Positions 10,208-41,065 of a stretch of 41,244 bases of DNA are shown here, one piece after another. A program made the translations under genes and the position numbers. A model generated the notes under the pieces. It saw only the letters and a program-made list of their open reading frames with translations, was not told the origin of the DNA and did not search any database. Source of the DNA: Cochliopodium minus (Eukaryota; Discosea; Himatismenida; Cochliopodiidae); NCBI GenBank assembly GCA_024220525.1, contig JAMYWO010000127.1:50282-91525 (forward strand), in the 5' to 3' direction. Numbering within the stretch: position 1 is the first letter of the stretch; each line of letters opens with the position of its first letter.

Positions 10208-11261
10208 TCAATTGCCCTTGCAAAAGATACTCTGGAACAAATTCTGAAGATTGGCAAAGTCCTCTTTCATCTTGCCTATCTCCGAATTGAGAAATTTGAT
10301 ATCTTCCTTCAATTCAGAGACGAGGAGATTTTGATCCAATTCGGGATTGCTGGATGAATGTTTGGTGTTGTTATTATGATCGGAGGGATCTATTTCCTCA
10401 TGATTCTTTTGGTAGCAGGAGGCTTCGATGAGGATATCCAAATCAAAATTTAAGGCCTTTTGCTCCTCCTCTTTATTCTCATGTGTATCTATCCATTTAT
10501 TGTCATAATGACCCTCTTCATTGATACATTCGATCACTTTATCTCCTATTTCGTTGAAAATTAATCAATATAAGCTTTTCGAAAAATATATTTGTGGGCA
10601 TCTTCATCATATGAGATGGGTAAAAAATTTTATATGTTTGTTAATGTATGATATTGGATAATTGATGAATAACTACCTTGATTATGCTCCCTTTTAATAT
10701 TTTTGTTGCATTCATTTTTTGTGCGGATCTTCGAAGAATAATTCTCATCATGATCCTCACTGCTGATATCATCCCTCAGTTTCTTATTGTTATTTTTTTG
10801 TGATCTCTTCCTCTTATTGTTGCTCTCTTTGGTGGGTTTATTTAAAATTACCTCCTTCTCCCTCTCTGAGTTCCTCAATCTTCTGCAAGCTGCACATACA
10901 CATATCGATGTGCATTTGAAGCAGATCCAACTCTCCAATTTCTCCAGATCCGAGAGTTTCTTGCCATAATGTCTATTGCAACAATTCGCGCAATATCTTC
11001 CATTACATTTCGTCGATTTATCTGTATCCCAAAAATGATCGCATACCACTATCTTATCATGCTTTATTTTACCTAATAGATGTTTTGATAAAATCATTAT
11101 TTAATTAAACATTGAGAATTCAAGTGAAACAAACATTGATGACACCAACTCAATAGTTGCACTCTTTGTATTCCTAAAGTTTGTTATATATTTAAGAGTT
11201 ATTATTCCTTTACAACAAAAAAGAATATTTTACGATTTCCGATCGTTTGTATGTTCTTCAT
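10208..11261 (-). CDS. CDCA7-type 4CXXC zinc-finger protein, copy 1, 266 aa
   Basis: Four exons (11234-11261, 11135-11173, 10677-11072, 10208-10545) give 267 codons. Two very short leading exons of 28 and 39 nt encode MKNIQTIGN and LLSWCHQ. The domain (residues ~20-90) has WCHQC, VVCDHFWDT, CNGRYCANCCNRHYGKKL, WICFKC and CVCAACRRLR. This is the zf-4CXXC_R1 pattern known from CDCA7-like proteins and some plant JmjC demethylases, a zinc-binding chromatin module. A basic tract (NNKRKRSQKNNNKK) looks like a nuclear localisation signal. The C-terminal part is acidic and ends in a short coiled coil (SELKEDIKFLNSEIGKMK). The paralogue at 13364-14340 shares the domain nearly residue for residue and both intron phases. 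The short exons rest on phase agreement and on the paralogue. Confidence 0.88.
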
Positions 11262-11446: not shown

Positions 11447-12961
11447 TTATTTCTTGTCTTGTCCCAAAGTATTGGCATCATTATCCTCAACCATATATCC
11501 CTTGAAGAAGAGACTCTTGCCACCAGCTTTTCCACCGATAGCAGCATTGAAAAGATGATAAGCAGCTTTGAGATTGAAGAGAGTACCCGCAGACAATAAA
11601 GGATTCCTCTTCATGGACATGATAGGATCGAAGATAGGAAAATCAATGCCATATGTGATCCCAAGATTTTGTACAGCATGCCACCACATGGATGGAAAGA
11701 ATAATACATCACCAGGCTCCAATATCACCTCGAATCCTTTGGCCAATTGCAATTGGGGATACTTGGCGAGATTAGTCTCGTTGAAATTGAAGATATCAAT
11801 GATGGTATTGTAGGCGACGTTGAATTGATGAGGCATGGGGAAGAGAAACATCGTCTCGGAAGGAGGAAAAAATATCCATCTCTTTCTTCCTTCAATCATC
11901 AAGAATGCGCCTAAAAAAATTTGATTATATCAGTGAAAAATTCTATTCGTTTAACATGTTGATGGATTATTGATTTTTCAATTAAGGCTATAAAATTATT
12001 TATTTTTCTTACTGGTTCCGATATCACAATGCATGTTTGTATTCAATTTGTTATTTCCGACAAAGATACATCCGGGTGTTTTTCCATTGTTCACTAAATT
12101 ATCATTTCAAATGAATTGAATTAGATAAATGGTATTGTTTTGAAATTTAAGTGAATATTTTATTTGAAATAATAGAATCCAATGAAGATTTTTTTTTTTT
12201 TACCAGCATGTGTGAATCTCTCCCCGAATTGCATGTTCATCAAATCCAATATCACTTCTCTATCATATGCCTCATCAATAGAATTATCAGGATAATCCAA
12301 ACAACGAGCATAACCTTTGTTTTTATGAAAGTGAATTGTTTTTTATTTATATTTATTGATTTATCAGAAATTTACCTTTATAATCTGGTTTATGTAAATT
12401 TTCTACATATTCATCGAATGGTTCCAATACAGCACTTTTATCCTTCATGTGATCTTCATAAAAAATAAAATTTTCAAAATCTCCTTCAAATTTTTTTTTT
12501 TTGATTGATTTACCTTTGAACACAGGGATTTTTTTTTTACCAAAGCTTTTGGTTATTTGTTTGAGGGACCATTTATCTGCTCCATGAAAATACTTTTTGT
12601 TTTTCAATAATCCTCTAACTACAACTGCATGTTCTTGTTGGATGAATATTTCTTTGAATTGTTTTTCCCAACCATCTTCGGATGCATTCAATGATGGCAA
12701 TTGTTTCATAGTATATGGTTGTTTATTTGATTCCAAATTTTTATATGTTATATTTGATGATGTAGCATAGTAGTTGGAAAAATATGGAACATCGTATGTT
12801 GATTTTAATCCCAATATGCTCCATAGACAGGATGTGTAAAAAGAAATTCTTGGAGCTAAAGTATCTATTTGGGAGGGATATGGAAAAAAGAATACAGAGG
12901 CGATGCTCAAGGTTAGGATGAGGAAAAATGAATATGCAAATAATTTTCTGATGAAACCCAT
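11447..12961 (-). CDS. Membrane-anchored JmjC/cupin-8 2-oxoglutarate oxygenase, 413 aa
   Basis: Exons 12376-12961, 12204-12314, 12013-12093, 11447-11910; phases sum to 414 codons from the ATG at 12961. The N-terminus (MGFIRKLFAYSFFLILTLSI) is a single hydrophobic segment with basic residues before it, so a type II signal anchor with a lumenal or extracellular catalytic domain is likely. The Fe(II) triad is HCD (about residues 254-256) plus the distal His in SMWWHAV (about 337). The GRKRW lysine is a candidate 2-oxoglutarate contact. JmjC hydroxylases of this size act on protein side chains; the substrate is unknown. A membrane anchor argues against a histone demethylase role, although the gene sits between two chromatin-type zinc-finger genes. 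A 69-bp dispersed repeat abuts its start codon. Confidence 0.88.
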
Positions 12962-13363: not shown

Positions 13364-14340
13364 TTAATAATTCCTATCAGTCAAACAAAATCGATTGTTG
13401 TTCTCTTGTTGGATGTGGGCTTGGAAAAGTTTTTGGAGGGAAAGGAACTGAGATTTCATGTGGGAAATCTCGGAAGTCAAAGATTGGACCTCCTGTCTCA
13501 ACAAAACAACCTGAGAAGGATTGAAATTGTTCTCACAAGAAAACTGATCGTTATTGAGGGAATTATCATCGACGGGATTCAAAAGATTCTTGATATCGTT
13601 TCTTTTATGCTCGGTCACAAGCTGTACCTCGCTCTGATCGTTGTTCATTGATTGAAGCGAAGCCTCTAAAAGAACATCCAAGGAATTGAAAGAGAAATTA
13701 TCAGATGTTTGCTGGGGATTAACTATCTCGCTCTTCATTGATGGATTTATCTTTTCCGGAATCGATTTATTGCTCTTTGAGGAAGACAATCGTGTTTCTC
13801 TTTTTGTTGTCAACTCAAAATTTTCTGTATGCAATTTTTTTTTCTCACTTAACAGATTATCGGATTCTTTGGAGATTGTTCTCTTCTTATTCTTATTCAA
13901 AATCACCTCTTGTTCTGTCTCTGGATTTCTCATTCTTCGGCATGCTGCACATACACATATCGATGTGCATTTGAAGCAGACCCAACTCTCCAACTTCTCC
14001 AGATCCGAGAGTTTCTTGCCATAATGTCTATTGCAACAATTCGCGCAATATCTTCCATTACATTTTGTTGATCTATTTGTATCCCAAAAATGATCGCATA
14101 CCACTATCTTCTCATGCTTTATTTTGCCTATTTATAATTTATCACAGAATTTAAAAAAAATATTTTCAAGATAATTAATTTACATTGATGGCACCAAGTA
14201 TTGTGGAGTACACCTTGATTTTTTCAATTTTCAAAATTTTATTGAGTTAAAAAAAAAAAATTGTTACAATAAAAAAAATTTTTTTTTTTACGAGTTATCT
14301 TCCCATTGTCTTGTATTGGACTACCGTATCTTGAATTCAT
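13364..14340 (-). CDS. CDCA7-type 4CXXC zinc-finger protein, copy 2, 280 aa
   Basis: Three exons (14292-14340, 14184-14213, 13364-14127) give 281 codons. The 49- and 30-nt leading exons encode MNSRYGSPIQDNGKIT and NTWCHQ, supplying the first CxxC of the domain. The third exon continues KIKHEKIVVCDHFWDT, CNGRYCANCCNRHYG, WVCFKC and CVCAACRRMR. Domain sequence and intron positions match copy 1. The tails have diverged: this one is Ser/Asn-rich and ends in a coiled coil (VLLRQEVQSLTSEISHMK). A nuclear, chromatin- or DNA-associated role is inferred from the zf-4CXXC_R1 family. The pair is a local duplication now separated by the JmjC gene. Confidence 0.88.
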
Positions 14341-14711: not shown

Positions 14712-16104
14712 TTATAAGTTTGATTTAGAAATATGCTTTGGGGGATGATTTTGATGCCAATGCTTTGCAATATCGATTCTCCTGCAAACCCATATATCCT
14801 TAAAATTCTTGATGTAATCGAGAAATTTGATCAAACCAGAAGCACGGCCAGGTTTACCAACAACCCTACAATGGAGTCCAATGGACATCATTTTAGGTTT
14901 TCCTTTGCATCCCTCTTGGTAGAGTTGATCAAAATTTTCTTTGAGCATTTCAAAGAATTGATTTCCTTTTAAGATATAAATGAGGATTTCCGATTTAGTT
15001 TAAAAAAAATTAAAATTTATTTTTGACGAAATTTGATTTAAGAATTATTGTGGAAAAATAAAATTTTTTGAAAGCAAAACTTATTTTATTCTTACCAGAT
15101 GAGAAGGATCCATTCACTGAAACAAACTTCATATCATTGATTTCGAGGGTATAAGGAATTACGAGATGGGGTTTTCCGTAATCGTAGTTCCAATAAGGCA
15201 AATCATCGTTATAAGCATCAGAATCATAGAGGAATCCACTTTTTTCAAATAAAAATAATTAAAGGATCTGAAAGAATGCTTTCTTATAAAATTGAGAAAT
15301 ATCAAATAATTGAATAAATTAAGCATAATATTTTCAATTTTTATTTTACCCTTCTTCTACAACCAATTTCCTTGTGTTGATTGATGGTTTTCCTTGATAT
15401 ATTCCGTAAGGTCTTTCTCCGACATATTTCTCATTTGCTTTGATGGCCAATTTGATATGTTCCCTCTCCACGCTTTCGGAAACATTTTGATATTCCCACC
15501 ATCTCCATCCATGAGTGGCCACTTCCCATCCTGCTTCTCTCCTATTTAAAAAATTTAATTTTAAAAGTCGATAATAGGATGATATATATCGATTTGATCT
15601 TTCAGAATATGTATTTGAATTCAAATGACAAATAATTTGAGTATATTTTTTATTATTGAGATGATTTCTATATGTATTTGAAATGTACATTGCTTTTCCT
15701 GCTTCTGGATTCTTTTGGAGTGCCAATCCATTTGCATAGGATGTAACAGGGATATTTCTTTCAGTGAATATATCATATAATCTCCAAAATCCAGCCCTAG
15801 ATCCATATTCATATAAGCTTTCTACATTCAAATTTCTTTCCAATCTAATGGGTTGACAATTAATTTCATTTAATAAATTCTCTGAATTAGAATCACCATC
15901 AAGTATATTTTTCTCTGATCCTTCTTCATAATTCACAACAAATTGTACAGCTACTTTAGCCTATAAGTTTTTAAGAAAAGAAAAAAAATTAGTTTTATTT
16001 TTTGAATGTGATCAAATTATATCAACCTGATTTGGCCATTTTGGATCATAAGAGTTTCTTCCATAACCAATAAAATTTCTTGGGTTTAATTTGTAAGAGT
16101 CCAT
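14712..16104 (-). CDS. Polysaccharide deacetylase family protein, PuuE/allantoinase-like, 312 aa
   Basis: Five exons (16027-16104, 15689-15960, 15350-15541, 15096-15238, 14712-14965) give 313 codons. Diagnostic segments are AKVAVQFVVNYEEGSE, YGSRAGFWRLYDIF, PVTSYANGLALQKNPEAGKA, GWEVATHGWRWWEYQ and LHCRVVGKPGRASGL, ending FKDIWVCRRIDIAKHW. These match the PuuE/SpCDA1 subgroup, described as metal-dependent amidohydrolases acting on allantoin or chitin-like substrates; which applies here cannot be told. The C-terminus is SNL, a weak peroxisome-type (PTS1-like) signal, compatible with a ureide role. The intron at 15542-15688 has no stop in frame, but removing it joins KAM to REAGWEV exactly as in the family. 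Confidence 0.92.
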
Positions 16105-16527: not shown

Positions 16528-19424
16528 TTAATTATTTACATTTTCATCTTCAAAAAAACCATCAAGAGATTGATTAAAAAAAGAAACTCTATCGAGGGAA
16601 TACTCATTACTATGAGGGTTGCTTACAATTATACGAGGACTGGTGTCCTTACTAGAAAGAGGGACGCTGGGACCATTAGTCTCATGGAGTTGGTGATCTA
16701 GATATTGAATCTCATCAAGAAAAGAGTCTATCTCATTTGCAAAGTTGTCAGATTCTTGGTTGGGCTGGGTATGGATGTCAAATTCAATGGCGGAAATCTC
16801 CTCTTGACCTTCTTCTTCATTGATCGTCTCCAAATACTCGAGTTCTTCGTGTTGGATCTCGTTAGAATCAACGTGATAAGTATTGTCATACTCAATATAC
16901 TCGATTTCATGTTCCAAAGCCTCCCCTTCACCATAATCATTTTCACCTTCACCGTAATCGTTTTCGTCGTACTCAACAGTCCCTTCTTCTTCTTTTTCGG
17001 GTTCTCTCTGAGGGTTCTTGTCTTTTTGGGGAGACATCATATTGGTGAACTGATCCAACTCGTAGAGAAATGAGTCCATTTCTTCTTGGGGACTTTGGAA
17101 CTGTTTGGAGGGAGATTCAAAGAGATCATCATTGTTGTTTTTGTTATTACTTTCATTCGACAAAAAAAGATCGTTTTGTGAATGATCGTCTTCCTTTGAA
17201 AGAAATGTTCCATTGTTATTGTCATAGTCATTGTTAACTTTATTATTTTCGATTAATATATTATTAACACCAACATTATTGTTGTAATTGATGTTATAAT
17301 AATAATTGTTGTTGTCCATTTCATTGTAAATTGTTTTATAATTATTCTCATTATTTTTGTTGTGACTGTTATTGCTATTACCATTATAATTATTTCCATT
17401 AAGAAAAGATTTTTCGTTGTTTTCTGTAATAGAAGTTTGCTCCTTGGAAACTTTTTTGTTCAAGAGGCGAAACTCCTGCAAAAGTTTGTTTTCACTGATA
17501 TCATCAAAAGGAGCGACGTCATCACGAGAAGAATTCTTGACAGAAGAAGAAGAGGGGTTGTTGAAAATTGGCTCGGTGAATCTCACACCTGACTTTGATA
17601 ATCTTTTCTGAACGCTCACCTCCTCGACCTCGCTTGACCAATCTTCGGAATCGGAACTTTGGTTGTTGAAGACCTTTTTTTTTGTCAAATTAAAATTGTC
17701 AATTTTTTTTTTTGTAAAATATTATCTTTTTTGAAATAAAATTGTTTTTTTTTTTTATTTTCAACTTGTTTGAAAATCATCATATAAAACAGCCAACGTG
17801 AATATAAATCCTTTATTTATTAATTCTTCTGATTATACAAAGAAAAATTCTTTGTAGGATATTCTATGTTTAGTCCTTTATAATTAAAGTATCAAAAGAA
17901 TATAAAGAATTTTTTTTTTTTTTATATTCTCAGATTTTCAGTAGAAACAAGTTTTCCTTTTCAGGAACTTGTATAACTCTTATTGATATATCAATTCATT
18001 TTTCAATAAAAAATTTCATTGAGTGGAATATTATATTTTATAATTTTAATTTAAAAAGAAAAATCCAAATAAAAGTAAAATTTTTAAAAAATTGATACCT
18101 TGGGAGGCGGTCTTTTTGGAGGGGTTCCTTTTTTGGGAGGGGGTCCTTTTGGCCTAAGAAAGTTAGAAACCTTCTCTGGAGCGAAGTTTGGCCTTTCTGG
18201 TTTGGTTGTTACTGTGCGATGTCTCGTTTGGGTGATGGAGGGTACGGGATGGCTTGTGGGGGTTGGTTGTAGGGAGGGTTTTTTTGATTTGAGAGATTCC
18301 AGCCACTTTCCAAAAGGATCTTCTTCTTGGTTTTCGAAAGGCTTTAAATGTAGTTTGTTGAGAATTAAAATTATTTTTATTTTATTCAATGAAAATTATA
18401 AAAAAAAAATTAATATTAATTTTTTGAATTGGAAATTGGATTATTAATCTTGATTTGTAAGAGCATATTAAAACTTTTTTTTTTTACTTTGAATATATAA
18501 TCATAATTCTTCACTAGTGTCATCATGGCTGATAATGCTTTGGGTGTATTGACAAATTCATTCAATGCTTTTTTGTTTGATCTGATCACATTGGGAGCAA
18601 ACACAATGCTAAGATTCTCTGCTGTCATATTGTTGATGGCGGAGTATCCAGAGAAGATGATGATCAGATTTATCAATCTGCAGAGAAGGATTCTATGTGA
18701 TATGGGAAGCGAAAATACCAAGTTATGATAATATAATATTTTTTGATCAATATTTGCTTTATAAAATAAATAAATATGAATATTTTTATTAAATAGAAAA
18801 AAAGCTTATATATGCATTTGAAATTATAATTCTTACGTATATTATTCCCTTGCAAGAAATATTCATAATATTTGAATGTGCACAATGGTTCAGGTATTTC
18901 CCTTATATACAATTTCAATAATCCCGCAATGGTGTGAGGATCTTCATTTTCGAATTCTATCTCCATCACTATTTGCAATTCAGTCAAATATTTGTTAAAT
19001 ATTTCAAATTAATAATATTTTGTGATTTTATATTTTCTTACACAATTCAATATATTCTTTCAATTCAATTATTCGATTCTTATTTCCTGATAATCTGAAT
19101 ATTCCTGTTGATTTATACACTATGAAAGAAAATATTTTGTGAGATATATATATTAGATTTGAATATTCAAAAAGAATAAATCTCTATCTTATTTTACCAT
19201 GCTCTTGATTTAATGATGAAAATATTAATTCCAAAAATTTTGGCAACTGATTTCCTTTTGATATTTCCTCTTTAGTTAATTGCCTATCGAAGGTATCAAC
19301 CAAAGAAGCTGAAAAAACATTGTTCCTTTCAATTTTTGAACAATATCTTTTGGACTATTGATTAAATAGGTAAATATTTTGCGTTTTGATTTTTAATTGG
19401 ATCTATCATTACCCTATTATTCAT
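16528..19424 (-). CDS. RhoGAP-domain protein with proline-rich and acidic/Asn-rich tail, 678 aa
   Basis: Seven exons: 19413-19424 (12 nt, MNNR), 19198-19354, 19042-19119, 18837-18968, 18488-18756, 18099-18341, 16528-17673, totalling 679 codons. The RhoGAP domain spans about residues 13-215: NVFSASLVDTFDRQ, the arginine finger in STGIFRLSGNKNR (about R65), EDPHTIAGLLKLYIREIPEP, LPISHRILLCRLINLI and NNMTAENLSIVFAPNVI. It should accelerate GTP hydrolysis by Rho/Rac/Cdc42-type GTPases in actin control. Residues ~215-300 hold a proline-rich stretch (RPKGPPPKKGTPPKRPPPK), likely an SH3 ligand. The remaining ~380 residues are low-complexity, with Asn runs and Glu/Asp-rich repeats (NDYGEGE twice), probably disordered. 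The intron 17674-18098 (425 nt) shows no further feature. Confidence 0.92.
17674..18098 (-). other. Long RhoGAP intron, no recognised content
   Basis: This 425-nt intron lies between the proline-rich exon and the last exon. It has several T-runs and short local duplications such as AAGAATATAAAGAAT. No open frame, RNA gene or match to the dispersed repeats is seen. Confidence 0.6.
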
Positions 19425-26243: not shown

Positions 26244-28574
26244 ATGAAAAATGAACACATAAATTTGCTTATATTTTTTCTTTTCTTTCTTTTCATCTCA
26301 TGTCATGAATCCAATTATGAAAATTTGAGATTAAGTATGGAAGAAAAGAGGTGGCTGTCTTCATCATCCAGGACAGATATCAATGGATGGATTCATATTG
26401 TGGTGAATGGGGATCCATATGCCAGGGGATTCCAAGTGAATATCCAATTATAAAAAATATGTAATATTTAATTTAATTTAAACATTAATTCTTAGTATGG
26501 TTATTTGACATCCAAAGAATTTGCAGAAGCATGGAATGTATTTGATGCATTAACATATCAAGGTATATCTTATTTTTTTTTTTTTTTTCATGAAGATTCA
26601 TTTAAATAGGCTATGGTATGAAAATGTCCTTCTACAATGAAAAATCAATTCAAATGCACAAAAAAATGATCCCAATTGAATATCTGGATGAGATGAAAGG
26701 TGAAATATATCCCAATAATTTATAAAACTAAATTCAAAATTGAATTAATTAAAAAAAATAGGGATTGCTGATGGGATAACAAAAGGTGGATATATGAATG
26801 TTACATTAGATAATATAATTGCATGGAATGATTATCAAGAGATGGTGAGAAATTTCAATTGAATTTAATAATTTATAAAATAATTCAAAATTTCTTTTTG
26901 AAGACTTTGTATTGGTGGCCTACTGTCCAATCTAATTACACCAACACCCAAAGTACCTCTAGTTTTGGCAAGAGGTTTGCAAAGGGAGGGCATTGCTCTG
27001 CTTTTGCTGCAACAGGAAACGCGACACAAGACGGAAAAATAGTAATCGCCCATACAACTTTTGTTGATTTTTGGCAAGGTAAAGATTATTTCAGAACCAC
27101 AAATATTGAACTCTTTTAAACAAGTGTATTTCAAAAAAAGAATTTTTAAATTTTTTTTTTATGTAACTGTTTCAATTTTTCAATTAATTTAATTATTTCA
27201 AGAAATTTGATATTTCAAATAAACTGAAATTTCTTAGCAACAAATTTTCGAGATTTGTTAATTTCTTTAAAATTAAAATTAAAATTCTTTTTAAAATTAA
27301 AATAGGACAATATTTCAATGTAATGCTCGATATGACACCAACAAACGGAAATAGAATGGTGTTCCAAGTAACTGTAGGCTGGATAGCTTCGTTTTCTGAC
27401 TTTTGGGTGACATCAGGAGGCTTGATCATTGTGGAAACTTCTCTCGTCAATTATTTTGGTTACGACACAACCAAAATGCCCGAGTGGGTTCGTAATAGAG
27501 ATGCAGCTCAATACTCTGATTCAATTGATGGCTGGGTAAGTCGTCTAAATAATGGGAATGACGGTAATTTGTTTTTTATTTCATTTTCTATTTTTGTTTA
27601 TTTTTATTTATTAAACATTTTAAATCTTTTAAATCTTAACATTTTTATTTTATAATAAAGGAGCGTTTGCCAACCAATGGCTCGTTGGAGACATCAAAAC
27701 TAATGAAATTGCAATTTATGAGCAAGGGTTACTCTACCAGAGTTTTAGCAAGAAATCAGATGGATATCTTTTTTCAATCAATTCTCCTTTTGACCCACAA
27801 ATACGCCATTTGGGTATATTTTTTGATTTTAAAAAATTTAATTACAATGAAGTAAATATTTGAATTAGAATGTAAAGACACTGGCTTCAGTGATATCAGA
27901 CAAGTTGTAGGTGCAAGAAAAGTGAGATTTCCAGAGCTTTTGAATAAAAATTTTGGAAAGATAAATGGCTCTATTGCTCAATCAATTATTTCAGAGTAAA
28001 AAAATTTTTTTTTTTAAATTTTTTTTTAAAAATTTTCTTTAAAAAAAGCACCTATGACCCTTATTTAAAAAAAGAAAATCCTTCTGGTCGTTGTATTTGT
28101 GCTCATTTTGATGCTGATCCTCAATACTATTGTTCAGATCCTAATGCAGGCTGGTGAAAATTTTAATAAAATTTTATTACTAAAACTAACAAAAAATATC
28201 AACAGGAATGGTACATCATTTTATTTTAAAAATATTAATTCGATAATAAATTTAATTTTTAAAAGTTCCATTTTACCCAGCTGGATCTATTGATGGAAAG
28301 TATTCAACTTCATCTTTAGCTGCTAACATGTCCGTTTGGTAAAACAACAATGTTTATTTAAAAACTAATTTTGTGGTTTGTAATAGGGGTAAAATAAAAA
28401 AAAATTTTTTTACCAAAATCTGAAATATTTTGTTACTTTTTAGCTCGCTTTGGAAGGGCCGATGGAGTTCCTTTTGATTCAGAATCCTTTTTTCAACAAA
28501 ATCCTCAATGGGACTGGCAAAAACCTTTTTTAAAAAGCCGTCCAAGCCAACCTTGGACTTTTTTTGGGAATTAA
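26244..28574 (+). CDS. Phospholipase B-like (PLBD/LAMA) hydrolase, 486 aa, 13 exons
   Basis: Exons 26244-26435, 26496-26562, 26610-26699, 26762-26844, 26904-27078, 27306-27563, 27661-27813, 27869-27995, 28049-28153, 28206-28210, 28266-28338, 28387-28388, 28444-28574 sum to 487 codons. A signal peptide is clear (NLLIFFLFFLFISC), so the protein is secreted or lysosomal. Family features: GDPYARGFQYGYL near the N-terminus, the N-terminal-nucleophile cysteine in GGHCSAFAATG (about C175), IVIAHTTFVDFWQG, YTTLVETSL-type segment GGLIIVETSLVNYFGY, WVGDIKTNEIAIYEQ-like core, and the C-terminal FGRADGVPFDSESF ending QPWTFFGN. Members are Ntn hydrolases matured by self-cleavage and active on phospholipid acyl or amide bonds. 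Two microexons (5 and 2 nt) are required. Confidence 0.9.
28206..28210 (+). other. 5-nt microexon (GAATG)
   Basis: The order is CAACAG|GAATG|GTACATC. It receives two bases (TG) of a Trp codon and gives one base of the next Val, producing GW-N-VPFYPAGSIDGK. Reading on past the donor soon leaves the family pattern and meets a stop. The frame downstream needs exactly this length modulo 3. Confidence 0.75.
28387..28388 (+). other. Candidate 2-nt microexon (GG)
   Basis: Between exons ending TCCGTTTG|GTAAAA (28338) and starting TTTTTAG|CTCGCTTTGG (28444), direct joining gives the wrong frame and an early stop. Inside lies TAATAG|GG|GTAAAATAAA, a full acceptor and donor two bases apart. Using it gives SVWARFGRADG in frame, with introns of 48 and 55 nt, typical sizes here. 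A sequencing indel is the alternative. Confidence 0.6.
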
Positions 28575-29805: not shown

Positions 29806-31565
29806 ATGAAACAAAGCTCTACTTCTTGTTTTTCTGACCACAATATTTTCTTTAAAGGTAATTCAAATAAAAATAAAATAAATAAAATGAATAATGAAAA
29901 ATATTAAAAATAAAAATATTAAAAATAAAAATATTAAAAATAAAATTTAAACAAAATAAATAATTATTGATAAAATGAAATAATAAAAAATATAATAAAA
30001 AATAATAATTAAAACAAATTTAGAAAATGGAGATGTTTATTCATTTGGACATAACGGTCAAGGACAATGTGGAACAGGATATATGGGCCATGTGCAAACA
30101 CCTACTAAAATAATGAATAATCCCAAAATAAAATCTATTGTCTTGGGAGTGTATAATTCTTTTTATTTGGAAAGTAAATTATATTGTTTTATTGTTTTAA
30201 TTTTTTCTTTATTTTTTATTTATTGTTTTAATTTTTTCTTTATTTATAATTTAAATTTTAGTTTCTTATTTTTATTTTTATTTTATTTATCTTTTTTATC
30301 TTTTTTTATTTTCTGATCCGAGATGATGGAAATTTGTATGGATGTGGTAATTTCATTTCAAAAATAATGTGTTTTTTTTGTATTTTTATTTTATTTAAAA
30401 TTTTATTTTAAGGGAGGAATGATTGTGGACAATTAGGAATAAAAAATAATAAAACAAATTTATCAACATTTACACTCATTTCTTCTAATGTTACTCAAGT
30501 TTGTGCTTCTCATCTACTCTCTATTATTCAAAAAGGTAATTTAAATCTTTTTTTTTTTGAAAATATTTTTTATTTATACAAATTATTTTTTGCTAAATTA
30601 TTTTTTATTTTTATTTTATTATTTTAAAATTTTGGAATATTTTTTATCATTTTTTTTTTATTAAACTTTGAATTTTTTGTTAAAAAATATTCAATATTTT
30701 TTTAATTTTTTATCTTGTTTGGAAGGTGTAGATTTTAAAAAATTATTATTATTTTCTCTTTTTTTTTTTTTTATTTATTCATTTTAGATTTTTTATTTTT
30801 CAATAATTTTTTATTTTTTTTTTTAAAAGATGATGGGAAAATATATTGGAGTGGAAATTGGAATGGATTAAGACAAAGTGATGGTTTTACAGAAATAAAT
30901 ATTGATAATGTCATCTATTTTTCTTGTGGATACGAGCATGCTTTGTTTTTAAAAAGTAAACAAAAAAATCAAAAATAAAAAATTAATTAAATAAAAAATA
31001 TTTTAAAAAATAAAAGAAAATTTACATTTATTTACAAAATTAAAAAATAAATTAAAAAAATCATTAATTAATAAATAAATTGAAATAATTATTGAAAAAT
31101 AAATTTAAGTTAAAGATTAAAAAAGTTAATAAAAAATAAAAAAAATAAAAAATCAAAAAATAAAAAAATAATTATTTTTGATTTTACAAAAAATAAAATA
31201 TTTTTTTTACAAAAGAAAATGGAGAAGTATGGGTGATGGGAAATAATAATTATGGACAATGTGGATTTGAACCAACAGTAAGTGTTGTAGATGTTCCTTG
31301 TCTTTTATTAACATATCCTAATATTCTTTCTATTTCTTGTGGATATTATTCTTCTTTCATTTTAACTCGTAAAAAAAATTATTTAAAATAAATAAAATAA
31401 ATTTGATAAATTTGATAAATTTGATAAATAAAATAAATTTGATAAATAAAATAAATTTGATAAATTTGATAAATANCTTCAAAAATCAATTTGTTAGATT
31501 CAAATCTTTCAAGTGATCCCAATTCTCCTTCCCTTGAATCTCCCAAATTAAAAAGCTCAATTTGA
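29806..31565 (+). CDS. RCC1-repeat protein, small, 231 aa
   Basis: Exons 29806-29857, 30024-30173, 30323-30346, 30413-30535, 30830-30955, 31216-31368 and probably 31498-31565 give 232 codons. RCC1 blades are plain: ENGDVYSFGHNGQGQCGTG, NDGNLYGCGRNDCGQLGI, DDGKIYWSGNWNGLRQS and ENGEVWVMGNNNYGQCGF, each followed by a VxxVSCGYxHxLxL-type strand (YFSCGYEHALFL, SISCGYYSSFIL). Four to five blades are encoded against seven in a full RCC1 propeller, so it may be an incomplete or assembling propeller. RCC1-like domains serve as GTPase exchange factors or protein scaffolds; which is open. The last exon (ends KSSI) is less certain because an N lies in the preceding intron and an antisense frame overlaps it. 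Confidence 0.85.
31476..31476. other. Undetermined base inside an RCC1 intron
   Basis: A single N interrupts TAAATTTGA repeats between the sixth RCC1 exon and a phase-compatible last exon. It may hide an unsized gap in repeat DNA. Confidence 0.6.
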
Positions 31566-32646: not shown

Positions 32647-34796
32647 ATGAATTGTGAAGATAATCAATCCAATAAGAAAAGGAAGATAAACATAGATCTC
32701 AATAAAGAAATGATTCAAAAGATTAATAATAACAAGGAAAATTTTAAGAATGTAGTTGGGCAAATAGAGATTCTCCCGAAGAATGTGTTGAGCGAAATAT
32801 TTCAGAATTTGGATTTCAAACAAGTGATCATTTGCTCCCAAGTTTGCAAGGCAAGAAATAAAAAAATCTACCGAATTTTATAAGAAGAATTCTTAAAGGG
32901 AAAAAAATTAAGATAAAATTTATATTAACATATGTACTTTATATTCATCAATAGTAATGAATCTTTCCAAATTGATAGGCGAATTGAATTAAAATTATCT
33001 ATTATATTTTCACTCAAATAAAATCAAATAGATATTTTTAAAGAACTATATTTGGATTCAAATTCAATTCATTATCCTCCCAACAAAAAACCCTAAATAT
33101 ATTTTTTTTTTTTCTTTAATTTTTTTATATAAAAAGAAATGGAACAGTTCATCAAAATCAGGAAACATTTGGAAAAAATTGTTAATAAAAATTTTTGGAA
33201 CTTTAAACATTAAAAACCCTCAAAACGATTTTTATGAGGATTTCAAGTTCATGCATCTCAACTGGTGGAACAATCCCATTTCGAACCGACTTCAAATAAA
33301 AAACTATTTTACACTAAAGCACAATACAGAGTCCAGCAGTTCCGAGGATGCACACGTTTCTATAAGAAGGTAAATAAAAAAATATTTTATTTTTAAAATT
33401 GATTGATTTTTTTTGTTGTAAATTTATTAAAAATTTAATACATTTTTTTTAATTAATTTTTTTAAATTTATTTTTTTATTTTAAAAATTTTAATCTTGTT
33501 AAATAATTTTTAATTTTTTTTGTTAATTTTTTTTTGATTAATTTTTTAACATTTATTTCTTCTCTTTTTATTTTTGTTTGGTTTTTTAAAAAGAAATGCT
33601 GCTTTCACAAAAGAAAATAATGAAGGACTTCATTATTTTGAAACATATATAGAAACGTATTCTGAGGGAATTCCCTATATTTTCATTGGAGTTTCTCTGG
33701 ACTACATTGACCCAGAAAATACCCTGTCTAATGTTAGTGACACCAACAATCCCGATTATTGTTGGATCTACAATTCTGATGGTAAAAAAAATTTATTTAA
33801 AAAATAAAAATATGAAAAATAAAATAAAAATTATTTATTTACAAAAATTATTATTAACAAATATAAAAATAACAAAATCAAAAAATCAAAAAATTAAGAA
33901 TTACATTTATAATAATAAATAATTTTTTAATAGGTGCTCTGATTTTTACTTCAACAAAACTTTTTGTCGAGCAAACTGTGTGTAATATATTTTCGTAAAT
34001 TGTAAAACAAATTCTAATTTATTTAATAGTTTCTAGAGAAAGAAGAGGTTTTTCGGAGAAATACAAAAGTGGAGATACCGTTGGAGGTAAAATAATTTTA
34101 TTGATTAATTATTTTTTTAATTATTCATTTTATCTTTAATTTTTTTAATTTTTTAACTATTTTTATTTAGTTGGAGTTTATTTTCATGACAAAGAAGTTT
34201 CTGTTGGGTTTTACAAGAACCAAAAGTTTTTGGGAGTAGGTTATAAACTAAACTACAAAAAACTTTATCCTGCTTTTTCTCTTCCTGGTAAAATGTTCAA
34301 AATATTTTTTTTTTATTTTTATTTTTAAATTTTTATTTTATTTTATTATTTTTTTAATTTTGAATATTATCAAATTTTTATTTTTATTTTTAAATTTTTA
34401 TTTTATTTCATTTTTATTTTTAATTTTATTTTTTATTCTTTATTTTTTTTTTTAAAAATTTTTTTCTTTTTTGTATTTTATTTTTTGTTTATTTGATTTT
34501 AAAATTATCAAATTTTATTTTTATTTATTTTAAATTTTTATTTTTATTACTTATATTTTTTTTTTATTTATTTTATGTTCAAATTTTTATCATTATTTAT
34601 TTTAAAATTTTTTAATTTTATATTATCAAATTTTTATTTTTATTATTTTAAATTCTTTTAAAAAGGATATGGAACAACCATTCGTGTTAATTTTGATGCA
34701 AAACAACCAAAGAATCTGCTGAATGACATGATGAACACCCCAAAATGGACTCAACAAGAGTTACCTAAAACAGAAAAATTTCAATATTATAAATAA
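32647..34796 (+). CDS. F-box/SPRY protein, copy A, 325 aa
   Basis: Seven exons (32647-32850, 33137-33369, 33594-33781, 33934-33981, 34030-34086, 34171-34287, 34666-34796) give 326 codons. A lysine/asparagine-rich 40-residue extension unique to this copy precedes the F-box (IEILPKNVLSEIFQNLDFKQ, ending ICSQVCK). The SPRY domain spans about 150-310: GLHYFETYIETYSEGIPYIF, DYCWIYNSDGALIF, SGDTVGVGVYFHDKEVSVGF, YKNQKFLGVGYKLNYKKLYP and GYGTTIRVNF. F-box/SPRY proteins act as ubiquitin-ligase adaptors, with SPRY as the substrate reader. Intron 1 has a GC donor (AAG|GCAAGA). The intron 34288-34665 is pure T/A micro-repeat. First of four tandem copies. Confidence 0.9.
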
Positions 34797-34896
34797 AAAT
34801 GAAAATAAAAATTTGGAAAAATAATAAAAAAAAAATTAAATAAAAAAAAATAAAAAATAAAAAAAATAAAAAAAAAAATTTGGAATACATACATTC

Positions 34897-36506
34897 ATGG
34901 AGATAGATATTCTTCCAAAAAATGTATTGAGCGAAATATTCCAGAATTTGGATTTCAAACAAATTATCATTTGCTCCCAAGTTTGCAAAGTAAGAAAAAA
35001 TAACAAATAAAAGGAGAAAATTATTAAAAAATTTATTCATATTATTTGAAAGAGAAATAGAACACCATATCTTTGTTTCAAAAAATAAAGTATATTCGAT
35101 TAATATTTTTACCAAAGATTATAAATAATTTTAAAATATAATTTGGGGAAATCTATAATACCTTGTATTGCATCTATGCATTTCATAATCCGATAATAAT
35201 TGAAGCACTATAAATTTAAATTTTGTTTAATTTTAATTATTTTTTTTTTAATTTTTTAAGAAATGGAACAATTCCTCGAAATCAGGAAACATTTGGAAGA
35301 AAAAATTGTTAGAAATATTCTCAACTTTAAACACAGAACATCCTCAAAATGATTTTTATGAGGATTTCAAGTTCATGTATCAAAATGGGTGGGAAAACCC
35401 TGTCTCACGTCGTCTTAAAATCATAAATTTTTTTACTTTGCAACATGATACTGAATCTTATTCTAATTGTACACATGTTTCTGTAAGGAGGTAAAAAAAT
35501 AATAAAAAAAAAAAATCATCAGCTTCATTTTTCATTTTTTTATTATTTTATTTTTTATTTTTATTTTTATTCTTTATTTTATTTTAATTTTTTATTTTTT
35601 TTTTTTTAAAGAAAAATGGGGTACACCAAGAAATATAACGAAGGACTCCATTATTTTGAAACTTACATTCAAAAATTTGGTGGAAACATTGCCTTCATTT
35701 TCATTGGTGTTTGTCTTGAACATGTTAATATAGAAAATCCCCTCTCTACTTTAAATCCCAAAACTATTGATCCTGATTATTGTTGGATTTACAATTCTGA
35801 TGGTAAATAAAAGAAAATTAAAATTAAAAAAATAAAATGAATAAAATAAATAAATAAAAATATTTAAAAATAAATAAAAATAAATGAAAAATAAAAATTG
35901 AAAATAAAGTGTTGTTAAAAATTTTTCTTTTATAGGTGCACTAGTTTACACTTCAGAAAAAAGTGACTATTTTTAGTATCAGAAAATTCTTCATTAAATT
36001 TAAATAATTTTAGTTTTGAGGGAAAGATGCGACTTTTCGGAGAAATACAAAAGTGGAGATACCATTGGAGGCAACAAAATTTTTATCATATTTTTTTTAT
36101 TTTTTATTTTTTAATTATTTCACTATTTTTATTTAGTTGGAGTTTATTTTCATGACAAAGAAGTTTCTGTTGGATTTTACAAAAACCAAAAGTTTTTGGG
36201 AGTAGGTTATAAACTAAATTACAAAAAACTTTATCCCGCTTTTTCTATTCCTGGTAAAATGTTCAAAATATTTTTTATTATTTTAAAAATTTTATCAATT
36301 TTTTTTGAAAATTTTTATTTTAAAAAATTTTATTTTTCAATATTGGTTTTTTAATTTTTTTTAAAAAAGGTTATGGAACAACTATTCGTGTTAATTTTAA
36401 TTCGAAACATCCAAAGAATTTGTTGAGTGACATGATGGGAGAACCAATCAAATCAGAAAAAGTTTTACCAATGACAGAGAATTTCCAATATTATAAACAT
36501 AATTGA
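34897..36506 (+). CDS. F-box/SPRY protein, copy B, 283 aa
   Basis: Exons 34897-34989, 35261-35490, 35612-35802, 35936-35962, 36014-36070, 36137-36253, 36370-36506 give 284 codons. The start MEIDILPKNVLSEIF lacks copy A's extension. The SPRY part has diverged from copy A in its middle (YIQKFGGNIAFIFIGVCLEH) but keeps GVYFHDKEVSVGFYKNQKF and GYGTTIRVNF. Intron 5 has a GC donor (GGAG|GCAACA); exon 4 is only 27 nt and its donor is the weak GTGACT. From 35153 to the stop region it is identical by eye to copy C, introns included. Role as for copy A: inferred SCF adaptor. Confidence 0.9.
35153..36493 (+). repeat. 1341-bp tandem-duplicate tract, first unit
   Basis: This stretch, from inside intron 1 of copy B to its stop region, is identical by eye to 36831-38171, offset 1678 bp, including all introns and homopolymer lengths I compared. 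Upstream of 35153 the two copies differ by many substitutions and indels. Confidence 0.88.
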
Positions 36507-36564
36507 AAAATAAAAATAATTAAAAAAATAATAAAAGAAAAAAAAATTTGGAATACATACATTC

Positions 36565-38172
36565 ATGGAGATAGATATTCTTCCAAAAAATGTATTGAGC
36601 GAAATATTCCACAATTTGGATTTCAAACAAATTATCATTTGCTCTCAAGTTTGCAAAGTAAGAAAAAATAACAAATAAAAAAAGGAGGAAAAATTAAATA
36701 AAAATATAATCATATATTTGAAGGGAAATAGAACCATATCAATCTTCGTTCCAAAAAATAAAGTATATTACGATCGATTAATATTTTTACCAAAGATAAT
36801 TAATAATTTTAAAATATAATTTGGGCAAAGCTATAATACCTTGTATTGCATCTATGCATTTCATAATCCGATAATAATTGAAGCACTATAAATTTAAATT
36901 TTGTTTAATTTTAATTATTTTTTTTTTAATTTTTTAAGAAATGGAACAATTCCTCGAAATCAGGAAACATTTGGAAGAAAAAATTGTTAGAAATATTCTC
37001 AACTTTAAACACAGAACATCCTCAAAATGATTTTTATGAGGATTTCAAGTTCATGTATCAAAATGGGTGGGAAAACCCTGTCTCACGTCGTCTTAAAATC
37101 ATAAATTTTTTTACTTTGCAACATGATACTGAATCTTATTCTAATTGTACACATGTTTCTGTAAGGAGGTAAAAAAATAATAAAAAAAAAAAATCATCAG
37201 CTTCATTTTTCATTTTTTTATTATTTTATTTTTTATTTTTATTTTTATTCTTTATTTTATTTTAATTTTTTATTTTTTTTTTTTTAAAGAAAAATGGGGT
37301 ACACCAAGAAATATAACGAAGGACTCCATTATTTTGAAACTTACATTCAAAAATTTGGTGGAAACATTGCCTTCATTTTCATTGGTGTTTGTCTTGAACA
37401 TGTTAATATAGAAAATCCCCTCTCTACTTTAAATCCCAAAACTATTGATCCTGATTATTGTTGGATTTACAATTCTGATGGTAAATAAAAGAAAATTAAA
37501 ATTAAAAAAATAAAATGAATAAAATAAATAAATAAAAATATTTAAAAATAAATAAAAATAAATGAAAAATAAAAATTGAAAATAAAGTGTTGTTAAAAAT
37601 TTTTCTTTTATAGGTGCACTAGTTTACACTTCAGAAAAAAGTGACTATTTTTAGTATCAGAAAATTCTTCATTAAATTTAAATAATTTTAGTTTTGAGGG
37701 AAAGATGCGACTTTTCGGAGAAATACAAAAGTGGAGATACCATTGGAGGCAACAAAATTTTTATCATATTTTTTTTATTTTTTATTTTTTAATTATTTCA
37801 CTATTTTTATTTAGTTGGAGTTTATTTTCATGACAAAGAAGTTTCTGTTGGATTTTACAAAAACCAAAAGTTTTTGGGAGTAGGTTATAAACTAAATTAC
37901 AAAAAACTTTATCCCGCTTTTTCTATTCCTGGTAAAATGTTCAAAATATTTTTTATTATTTTAAAAATTTTATCAATTTTTTTTGAAAATTTTTATTTTA
38001 AAAAATTTTATTTTTCAATATTGGTTTTTTAATTTTTTTTAAAAAAGGTTATGGAACAACTATTCGTGTTAATTTTAATTCGAAACATCCAAAGAATTTG
38101 TTGAGTGACATGATGGGAGAACCAATCAAATCAGAAAAAGTTTTACCAATGACAGAGAATTTCCAATATTAA
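36565..38172 (+). CDS. F-box/SPRY protein, copy C, 279 aa
   Basis: Exons 36565-36657, 36939-37168, 37290-37480, 37614-37640, 37692-37748, 37815-37931, 38048-38172 give 280 codons. Exons 2-6 and their introns equal copy B base for base; the F-box exon differs slightly (SEIFHNLDF against SEIFQNLDF) and the last codons differ, ending ENFQY. The GC donor of intron 5 and the GTGACT donor of intron 4 are shared with copy B. Only 58 bp separate copy B's stop from this ATG, so the promoter must be very short or lie within copy B's 3' end. Confidence 0.9.
36831..38171 (+). repeat. 1341-bp tandem-duplicate tract, second unit
   Basis: Counterpart of 35153-36493. The boundaries fall inside intron 1 and a few bases before the stop codon, not at gene borders. 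That points to recent gene conversion or an assembly artefact rather than a fresh whole-gene duplication. Confidence 0.88.
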
Positions 38173-38251
38173 AACAATATCACAAATAAAAAAATAATTA
38201 AAAAAAAACATTTAAAAAATTATAAAAAAAAAATTTGGAATACATACAATA

Positions 38252-39836
38252 ATGGAGATAGATATTCTTCCAAAAAATGTATTGAGCGAAATATTCCAGA
38301 ATTTGGATTTCAAACAAGTGATCATTTGCTCCCAAGTTTGCAAGGCAAGAAATAAAAAAATATATCGAATTTTTTTGAGATTATGAAAGGAAAAAATTAA
38401 GATAATTTTTATATTAACATATGTACTTTATATTCATCAATAGCAATGAATCTTTCTTCAATTAAATCATATTTTTTTAATACATTTTTTTCTATGAAGA
38501 AATGGAACAGTCCATCAAAATCAGGAAACATTTGGAAAAAATTGTTATTAAAAATTTTTGGAACTTTAAACATTAAAAACCCTCAAAACGATTTTTATGA
38601 GGATTTCAAGTTCATGTATCTCAACTGGTGGAAAAATCCCATTTCGAACCGACTTCAAATAAAAAACTATTTTACTCTAAAGCACAATACAGAGTCTAGC
38701 AATTCCGAGGATGCACACGTTTCTATAAGAAGGTAAATAAAAAATATTTTATTTTTAAAATTAATTTTTTGTTTTTAATACATTTTTTATGATTTCAAAT
38801 GTTTGAAATTTTTTTTAAAGTTAATTTTTTAAAACTTTAATCTTTTTTTAATTCTTTTTTTGTTGTACATTTTATTTTTAGAAGTTAATTTAAATTCTAA
38901 ATTTTTTTTTTTAGTTTTTTAATGTTTTATTTTGATTTTATTTTGTTTGGTTTTTTAAAAAGAAATGCTGCTTTCACAAAAAAAAATAATGAAGGACTTC
39001 ATTATTTTGAAACATATATAGAAGCGTATTCTGAGGGAATACCCTATATTTTCATTGGAGTTTCTCTGGAGCACATAGACCCAGAAAATACCCTATCTAA
39101 TGTTAGTGATACCAACAATCCCGATTATTGTTGGATCTACAATTCTGACGGTAAAAAAAAATTTATTTAAAAAATAAAAATGTGTAAAAAACATATAAAA
39201 CCTAAAAATTGTTTAAAAATGAAAATAACAAAAAAATTTAAAAATTAAAAATTAAATTTCAAATAATTAATTTTTTATTAGGTGCTCTAATTTTTATTTC
39301 AACAAAAATTTTTTTTGAAAAAACTGTGCGTAATCTTTTTTTTTTTTTGTAAATTGTTCAACAGATTCCAATTTATAATAGTTTCTAGAGAAAGATGCGA
39401 CTTTTCGGAGAAATACAAAAGTGGAGATACCATTGGAGGTTTTAATTTTTAATTTTTTAAATAATTCATTATTTTTATTTAGTTGGAGTTTATTTTCGTG
39501 AAAAAGAAGTTTCTGTTGGGTTTTACAAAAACCAAAAGTTTTTGGGAGTAGGTTATAAACTAAATTACAAAAAACTTTATCCTGCTTTTTCTCTTCCTGG
39601 TAAAATGTTCAAAATATTTTTTATTATTTTAAAAATTTTATCAGTTTTTTTTAAAAAATTTTATTTTTCAATGTTGGTTTTTTTTAAATTTTTAAAAATT
39701 CTTTTAAAAAGGTTATGGAACAACTATTCGTGTTAATTTTAATTCGAAACATCCAAAGAATTTGTTGAATGACTTAATGGGAGAACCAATCAAATCAGAA
39801 AAAGTTTTACCAATGACAGAGAATTTCCAATATTAA
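38252..39836 (+). CDS. F-box/SPRY protein, copy D, 286 aa (mosaic of A and B/C)
   Basis: Exons 38252-38344, 38500-38732, 38963-39150, 39282-39329, 39382-39438, 39483-39599, 39712-39836 give 287 codons. Exons 1-4 and intron 1 follow copy A (GC donor AAG|GCAAGA, STNIWKK-type second exon SGNIWKKLLLKIFGTLNIKN). From exon 5 on it follows B/C (RERCDFSEKYKSGDTIG; the tail LMGEPIKSEKVLPMTENFQY) and shares their last intron. The SPRY core is intact. Function as for the other copies. The last array member; the next gene is convergent. Confidence 0.9.
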
Positions 39837-39933
39837 AAATGCACATTGAAAAAAATAAAAAATGAGAAATATTTGAAAATAATAAAATTAAAAAATAAAA
39901 ATAAATAATTTTTTTTATTTTTCTTTTTGATTA

Positions 39934-41065
39934 TTAATTTTTGATTGAAACTTCTAGTTCAAATATTTGATTCTTTTTAGAAACAGCCCAAACTTTATCA
40001 TTAGAAACAGGAAAAATGAAGTTTATGGGAGTATTGAAAGAAATTTTCTCAACAAAAATGATTCCACTAGCATCATAGATAGATACATCTCCATCTAATG
40101 AAGATGAAAAGACCAAGTTGTTTTCTTGAAACGTTAATGAAGAAAGGTAAGAGATTTTGTTTTGGTGGGTGTTGAGTATTTTGAGGATCGATTTTTCTTT
40201 GATGGGAAATTCTTTTGCCAATATTTTTTCAATTGAGAAAACTCCAACAGAACTCAAAGAAGCAGTCCAAAGAAAATTTCTTAATAAAAAAAAATTCAAA
40301 AAAAAAATTTAATATTTAAATAAAAAAATAAATGAATTGAATGATTTTTTGTTTTTTTACCCAAAAATAATGAAATGATTAATGTCATGGTCATGTGCTT
40401 TGAAATTCAAGAACAACTCTTTTTTTTCAACATTAAAAATATAAATGTCATGAACACTGCTGACCCAAAGAAAGTTGTTGAGAGGATCAAACTGCAGACA
40501 GTTTATCTTTTGTTTCGTGTCAAACAAAATTTCTGCATCGAATTTACCCATTTTCTTGAATAAATCCTTCCATATCACTATTTTTCCGGAGTTGTCTCCT
40601 GAGATGAAGAAACGCTGTTTTTTGGATGGCAGAACGCAGAGGGAGGTGATTGCTTGTTTGTGGAAGTTGAGTGAGATGTCCACTTTTTCGTTGATGTGGT
40701 TTCTAACACTAATCAGTCCTATTTAAATAAATAAATCAAATTTATTATACAAAAATTCAAAAACAATTAAAAAAGAAATTTTTGAATAATAAATGAAAAT
40801 TAATGAAAAAACAAAAATAATCTAAAATAAAAAATAAAATGATCTAAAAATAAACAAAAAAAATAAAATAATAAAATTAAAAACAAAAATAACCATTTTC
40901 AAATCCAATTATGTTGAAATCTTCGTAAAGAGACAAGCAAGTGATGCTTTTCTTCTCCTTATGAGTAGAATAGATCTGAAAATCGTTTTTATGGACATAC
41001 AGTACACATTTCCTGGAGTTAAGAATGACATCTTCATCCCTCTTGAATATGTTCAAAATCTTTTT
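39934..41065 (-). CDS. WD40-like beta-propeller protein (N-terminus outside the window)
   Basis: Three exons (40894-41065, 40361-40718, 39934-40279) chain in phase for 292 codons to the stop. The first begins at an acceptor (TTAACAG), so upstream exons lie beyond the right edge. Weak WD40 repeats are visible: ITCLSLYEDFNIIGFENGLI, ITSLCVLPSKKQRFFISGDN followed by SGKIVIWKD, INCLQFDPLNNFLWVSSVHD then IYIFNV, and LVFSSSLDGDVSIYDAS. These are protein-interaction scaffolds; no fused domain is seen in this part, so no specific role can be given. Confidence 0.82.

Follow-up and report, generated by a model that had tools for sequence, protein, structure and literature searches.

Exons of a single nucleotide have been described in the plant genes APC11 and VPS55 (PMC4674806, PMC8831610) and in the Fusarium gene CYP621A, where the exon sits in the context AG|G|GT (PMC12940212). 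The plant exons are internal and required for the reading frame, are missed by annotation, are kept in many land plants, and are confirmed by RT-PCR and RNA-seq. For APC11, the 2015 study further suggests that the introns are recognised by intron definition and taken out one at a time (PMC4674806). The CYP621A exon was reportedly inferred from a phase mismatch in a conserved motif and from an intronless homolog, that it occurs in 24 genes with SRA reads, and that it may have rescued a lost base (PMC12940212). A mitochondrial 1-bp exon is the subject of a further paper (PMC5436844). In stwintrons, one intron lies inside the splice signal of another and the two are removed by consecutive reactions (PMC9024468, PMC12403724, PMC5639578). 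None of the matches listed in a search of open-licence papers described a 2-nt exon, which is weak evidence of absence, and a search of the open-licence literature for microexons and intron definition in protists gave only a software paper.

The window considered here, i.e. the whole stretch of DNA that was analysed, comprises 41,244 nt of the Cochliopodium minus genome. One of its genes appears to contain a 5-nt exon, GAATG, and a 2-nt exon, GG. As in APC11 and VPS55, GG is an ultra-short internal exon required for the frame and missed by annotation. Unlike those exons, it has 2 nt instead of 1, occurs in one gene, is absent from two paralogs, and is known from genomic sequence alone. It shares with the CYP621A exon a composition of G only and a derivation from phase and conserved motif; in contrast to CYP621A, its setting is an intron-packed gene family with a continuous tail of exon sizes. 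The first-pass annotation had ranked a 2-nt exon among the smallest possible, rightly, given the published 1-nt exons (PMC4674806, PMC8831610, PMC12940212). The GG exon would join these published cases in an intron-rich genome.

The gene spans 26244-28574 (+) and was modelled with 13 exons, all on that strand, giving a product of 486 residues plus the stop codon; the earlier count of 13 exons and 487 codons is thereby borne out. All 12 introns are GT-AG, with lengths of 47-227 nt, ten of them between 47 and 62 nt. Exon 1 (26244-26435, 192 nt) has the start codon, is placed by frame and spliced profile alignment, and encodes a hydrophobic N-terminus, a possible signal peptide. Exons 2 (26496-26562), 3 (26610-26699), 4 (26762-26844), 6 (27306-27563), 7 (27661-27813) and 8 (27869-27995) are supported by frame and by spliced alignment, including alignment with window-free profiles, i.e. 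those built without the window protein. Exon 5 (26904-27078) is placed by frame and spliced alignment and was split in three of five window-free runs, so this part of the model is less sure and the gene could have 14 exons. A candidate extra GT-AG intron of 36 nt lies in exon 5 at 26953-26988 (+), in a stretch of low conservation; it is shorter than the smallest intron modelled in the nine genes of this family discussed below (43 nt). A possible 14th exon in this region leaves the microexon finding untouched.

The two microexons lie in the 3′ part of the gene. Exon 9 (28049-28153), placed by frame and spliced alignment, ends in the TG of codon Trp417 and is followed by intron 9 (28154-28205, 52 nt, GT-AG). 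Exon 10 (28206-28210), in the genomic context CAACAG|GAATG|GTACAT, would supply the last base of Trp417, the whole of Asn418 and the first base of Val419. After intron 10 (28211-28265, 55 nt, GT-AG), exon 11 (28266-28338, 73 nt) ends in the TG of codon Trp443. Intron 11 (28339-28386, 48 nt, GTAAAA..TAATAG) and intron 12 (28389-28443, 55 nt, GTAAAA..TTTTAG) then enclose exon 12 (28387-28388), read as TAATAG|GG|GTAAAA, whose two bases would finish Trp443 and begin Ala444. Exon 13 (28444-28574) encodes RFGRADG and ends the reading frame with its stop codon. Inclusion of GG, by the junctions 28338/28387 and 28388/28444, would give an mRNA that reads CTGCTAACATGTCCGTTTGGGCTCGCTTTGGA across this point. 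The introns on both sides of each microexon have complete donor and acceptor sites, and the bases of each microexon are required for the frame and for a conserved product.

If either microexon is omitted, or both are, the frame soon runs into stops; the rest of the 487 codons holds no further frame or stop problem. That both microexons are needed for an open frame is, at the level of the predicted coding sequence, a confirmed observation. Microexon skipping is known in other systems, and frequent skipping of GG would shift the frame, bring an early stop and down-regulate the product, so that the locus would be a pseudogene or a case of regulated truncation. The stop soon after a skipped GG suits that account, but apart from this point the reading frame is open and its product conserved, and we regard the account as very improbable. 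Skipping of GG in a minor isoform is possible.

The microexons were also found by a spliced aligner that compares a family profile with genomic DNA and accepts exons as short as 1 nt. With the main profile, made of 120 listed of 531 homologs plus the window protein at weight 0.4, the aligner returned the 13-exon model including GAATG and GG, and the same model came back when the splice-site scores had been trained on another gene. As a control for circularity, five profiles were made without the window protein (three reference rows; two of the profiles also without P0001, a EukProt protein described below). Both microexons were recovered in all five of these runs.

Conservation was counted over the 120 listed of 531 homologs, in which columns 418-451 are gapless. 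Around the 5-nt exon, Trp417 and Asn418 are each present in 114/120 homologs and Val or Ile stands at position 419 in 115/120. At the 2-nt exon, position 443 is Trp in 92/120 and Ser in 18/120, so this Trp is not universal; the first G of GG is predicted in those homologs that keep it. Position 444 is Gly in 79, Ala in 40 and Val in 1 of the 120, all with codons that start with G, and the family therefore predicts the second G in every case. Gly447 and Arg448 are invariant (120/120).

Alternatives at the GG site were enumerated with the 5-nt exon taken as given, by combining all GT donors in 28300-28420 with all AG acceptors in 28340-28520, both for single introns, where two GC donors were admitted as well, and for pairs of GT-AG introns with a minimum length of 20 nt. 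In nine solutions, two with single introns and seven with pairs, the frame stayed open as far as the proper stop. The sequence SVWARFGRADG, read in the first-pass annotation as well, was obtained from only one of the nine, with GG between introns 28339-28386 and 28389-28443. The two single-intron solutions drop five and eight residues, including columns 444-448, which are gapless in the 120 listed homologs. One of them uses the acceptor at 28456 (GGAAG|GG) and stays in frame without GG, with a product five residues shorter (SVWADGVPFD). Its frame is open and its intron canonical GT-AG, but it deletes ARFGR and with it the two invariant residues, and the deleted codons are intact and in frame in the genome; this solution is exceedingly improbable. 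A non-GT-AG single intron was rejected, as it would need TA..TA ends; we know of no such intron class.

An error of assembly or base calling would offer a different explanation, in which 28339-28443 is a single intron of 105 nt, two bases are missing at the exon edge, and GG is coincidental. The assembly has one copy of this DNA, which is AT-rich and rich in homopolymers, and introns of ~100 nt occur in these genes. Such an error would nonetheless have to remove two bases exactly at a splice edge and coincide with a chance AG-GG-GT between introns of typical size, while the remaining codons show no frame problem. How often chance provides this layout was estimated by shuffling 28339-28443 for GG and 28154-28265 for the 5-nt exon 20,000 times, with dinucleotide composition preserved and the hexamers at the ends held fixed. 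An AG-NN-GT, whatever its NN, that had 45 nt or more on both sides appeared in 276/20,000 shuffles, and one with NN = GG in 76/20,000; when 40 nt on both sides sufficed, the counts were 447 and 140 of 20,000. In none of the 20,000 did GG, with at least 45 nt on both sides, come with donor and acceptor scores at least equal to those observed. For the 5-nt exon, 29/20,000 shuffles held any such exon and 2/20,000 one that spelled W-N-V or W-N-I. Among the 36 modelled introns of at least 92 nt in the nine genes, AG-NN-GT with at least 45 nt on either side occurs once, with NN = AT, and hence GG in 0/36. An error at this point is, on these grounds, improbable.

Introns 11 and 12 have donor scores of 5.0 each and acceptor scores of 0.4 each, inside the range of 20 training introns from a paralog (C14, see below); the acceptor of intron 9, at -1.0, falls just under the lowest of the 20 (-0.9). 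Together, homolog conservation, the enumeration at the GG site and the chance tests support the claim, already made in the first-pass annotation, that the exons at 28206-28210 and 28387-28388 are both needed.

The same annotation had also placed the AG-GG-GT arrangement close to a recursive-splice (ratchet) site, and this part is not supported. In a ratchet site, AG|GT forms an exon of zero length, of which the mRNA keeps nothing, and such sites occur in long introns. The layout here resembles a ratchet point, and a recursive site of one long intron would account for it, but GG lies between AG and GT, and the mRNA requires both G, which preserve its frame and contribute to two codons of a conserved motif, Trp443 and Ala444. 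The dimensions are 48 + 2 + 55 nt, with no long intron. Because the message has to retain GG, this is not a ratchet layout, and that reading has next to no probability. A stwintron was likewise rejected: each of the two introns has its own intact GT and AG, and neither interrupts a splice signal of the other. The proposed processing is like that of stwintrons in the consecutive removal of two introns; it differs in the complete sites of each intron and in the retention of GG in the mRNA (PMC9024468, PMC12403724, PMC5639578).

The locus is thus very probably an intact nuclear gene of the PF04916 family with a 5-nt and a 2-nt exon, whose introns are recognised by intron definition and removed singly, and whose microexons arose by near-random intron insertion. 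Each ~50-nt intron would be recognised as a unit, and with intron definition exon length would hardly matter. Introns 11 and 12 each carry complete signals of their own and are of a length usual in these genes. On steric grounds, spliceosome parts bound simultaneously at the two edges of GG would probably collide, which points to sequential removal. If the 2-nt exon is really spliced, exon definition has no role at the GG site, and the exon offers a simple test of the minimum distance between two introns. Ordinary annotation may call such genes broken or truncate them, as reported for plant microexons (PMC8831610).

The gene is single-copy in the assembly and has two close paralogs in the same genome, C14 (L029) and C117 (L030). 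For C14, the spliced aligner gave 21 exons, including exons of 8, 8, 10 and 13 nt. P0001 is, by its name, a protein from a Trinity transcript assembly, and it was compared as protein, not as transcript bases. It is identical to the C14 model over 482/482 residues when P0001 itself guides the alignment, and over 452/452 residues of the model from the family profile, in which P0001 is one of the 120 rows. This agreement indicates that 8-nt exons do pass through splicing, whether in this species or in one almost identical to it. Eight nucleotides is the smallest exon size with transcript support; exons of 4 and 7 nt are homology-based. The C117 paralog (C117:96800-101200) was modelled with 25-26 exons, one of them of 7 nt, and has one internal stop at about codon 139, which is either a mis-modelled exon or a sign of a damaged gene. 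A further PF04916 gene, L067 (C205:57300-60000; also L004), holds a candidate 4-nt exon, AAGG, and an 8-nt exon, TCTCACAC, both proposed by homology only.

For the window gene itself, a full-length query found no transcript-derived protein near 100% identity, the best among the matches listed being 56-58%; the last 162 residues as query gave 10 matches, the best at 64% and none near 100%. We therefore infer the splicing of its microexons from the genomic letters. A search with a C51 query gave no further protein of this genome, and since P0001 is the only one of 250 proteins that corresponds to a gene here, homology alone underlies eight of the nine gene models.

The window gene and the C14 and C117 genes have 56 introns at 52 distinct positions, four of which are common to two genes. 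Of the three paralogs, only the window gene has introns 9, 11 and 12, while intron 10 is matched in C14 in both position and phase. Since the intron on the 3′ side of the 5-nt exon is common to a paralog and that on its 5′ side is not, this exon best fits a history of chance insertion. A new intron would have been inserted 5 nt upstream of the old intron 10, and two new introns would have come to lie 2 nt apart. Tiny exons would follow from the insertion of introns at many almost random places, occasionally two of them within a few bases. Loss of introns from a still denser ancestor, instead of insertion, is also possible. The idea that intron 11 is a copy of intron 12 was rejected, the best local match being only 14 low-complexity columns. 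With exons down to 2 nt and paralog intron positions that nearly all differ, the organism looks good for tests of intron spacing.

Exon sizes were compiled from nine PF04916 genes, picked because of the microexon finding, with 115 internal exons, 124 introns and 12,261 coding nt; several of the models are partial. Intron density in this set is 10.1 per kb, and introns have a median length of 63.5 nt and a minimum of 43 nt. Internal exons range from 2 to 389 nt with a continuous tail. Against an exponential with the observed mean, there are 3 exons of 5 nt or less (2, 4 and 5 nt) vs 6.3 expected, 8 of 8 nt or less vs 10.0, and 12 of 15 nt or less vs 18.0. Short exons are somewhat rarer than random placement predicts, yet have no visible floor; the deficit of very short exons makes some cost of small size likely. 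Elsewhere in the genome, 1 to 9 exons make up the HSP70 loci, which are on the whole less intron-dense than the PF04916 genes. The cytosolic HSP70 begins much as in social amoebae, a likeness that is no test of affinity. The ValRS gene, with 13 exons over 921 reference residues and a smallest internal exon of 26 nt, is also less dense, and a CTP synthase gene was partially recovered by spliced alignment. No clear branch-point motif was seen in a pool of 59 introns, 2 of which are false. A bolder generalisation is that exon size in this genome has practically no lower bound, near-random insertion into gene families having left exon lengths of 1-5 nt and upwards in a geometric distribution, and introns being removed strictly as independent units. 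We consider this conceivable but doubtful; if true, the genome would be rich in exons of 1-5 nt, perhaps beyond any species described.

The assignment to phospholipase B-like proteins, made from the sequence at first pass, agrees with a PF04916 (Phospholip_B) match of 50.2 bits over residues 113-470, above the Pfam cut-off of 27. In the PDB, PLBD1/PLBD2 were the only matches to the window protein, and weak ones. Identity to it is 49-58% among the 120 listed of 531 homologs; the organism is named for ten, all bacteria, two are EukProt proteins, and 108 are without a name. Unlike the eukaryotic classical PF04916 proteins, the window protein groups with bacterial-type ones, and its subfamily is best known from bacteria. 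In a tree of 128 proteins made by a quick method, a well-supported branch parts the window protein and the bacterial-type proteins from five eukaryotic classical proteins; the branches of the window and C117 proteins are long, and the grouping of this genome's genes has support 0. As this quick tree does not place the genome's genes, transfer of the subfamily from bacteria is a guess.

An Rfam scan of the window gave nothing at the gathering threshold. Other features of the window include two zf-4CXXC_R1 zinc finger frames, apparent duplicates, at 10630-11100 and 13364-14131 (-), which flank a Cupin_8/JmjC-like frame at 11447-11929. Exons with matches to Polysacc_deac_1 (15346-15960), RhoGAP (18416-18805) and RCC1 (29999-30316) were seen, as was an exon with a weak WD40-like match (40357-40722). 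An array of up to four related segments, ~1.6-2.1 kb apart and 62-100% identical, occupies 32688-39887; segments 35082-35381 and 36760-37059 are 97% identical, and 36094-36344 and 37772-38022 are 100% identical. Related short reading frames lie in the array at 33032-33373 and 38401-38736, the latter with no match in Pfam. Elsewhere in the genome, the set of Ras-family GTPases is very large, with at least 164 matches over many contigs (150 of 771 candidates scored). One Ras-like match, at C1:633782-634150, falls within a reading frame open for 14,711 residues, which would be remarkable if real.
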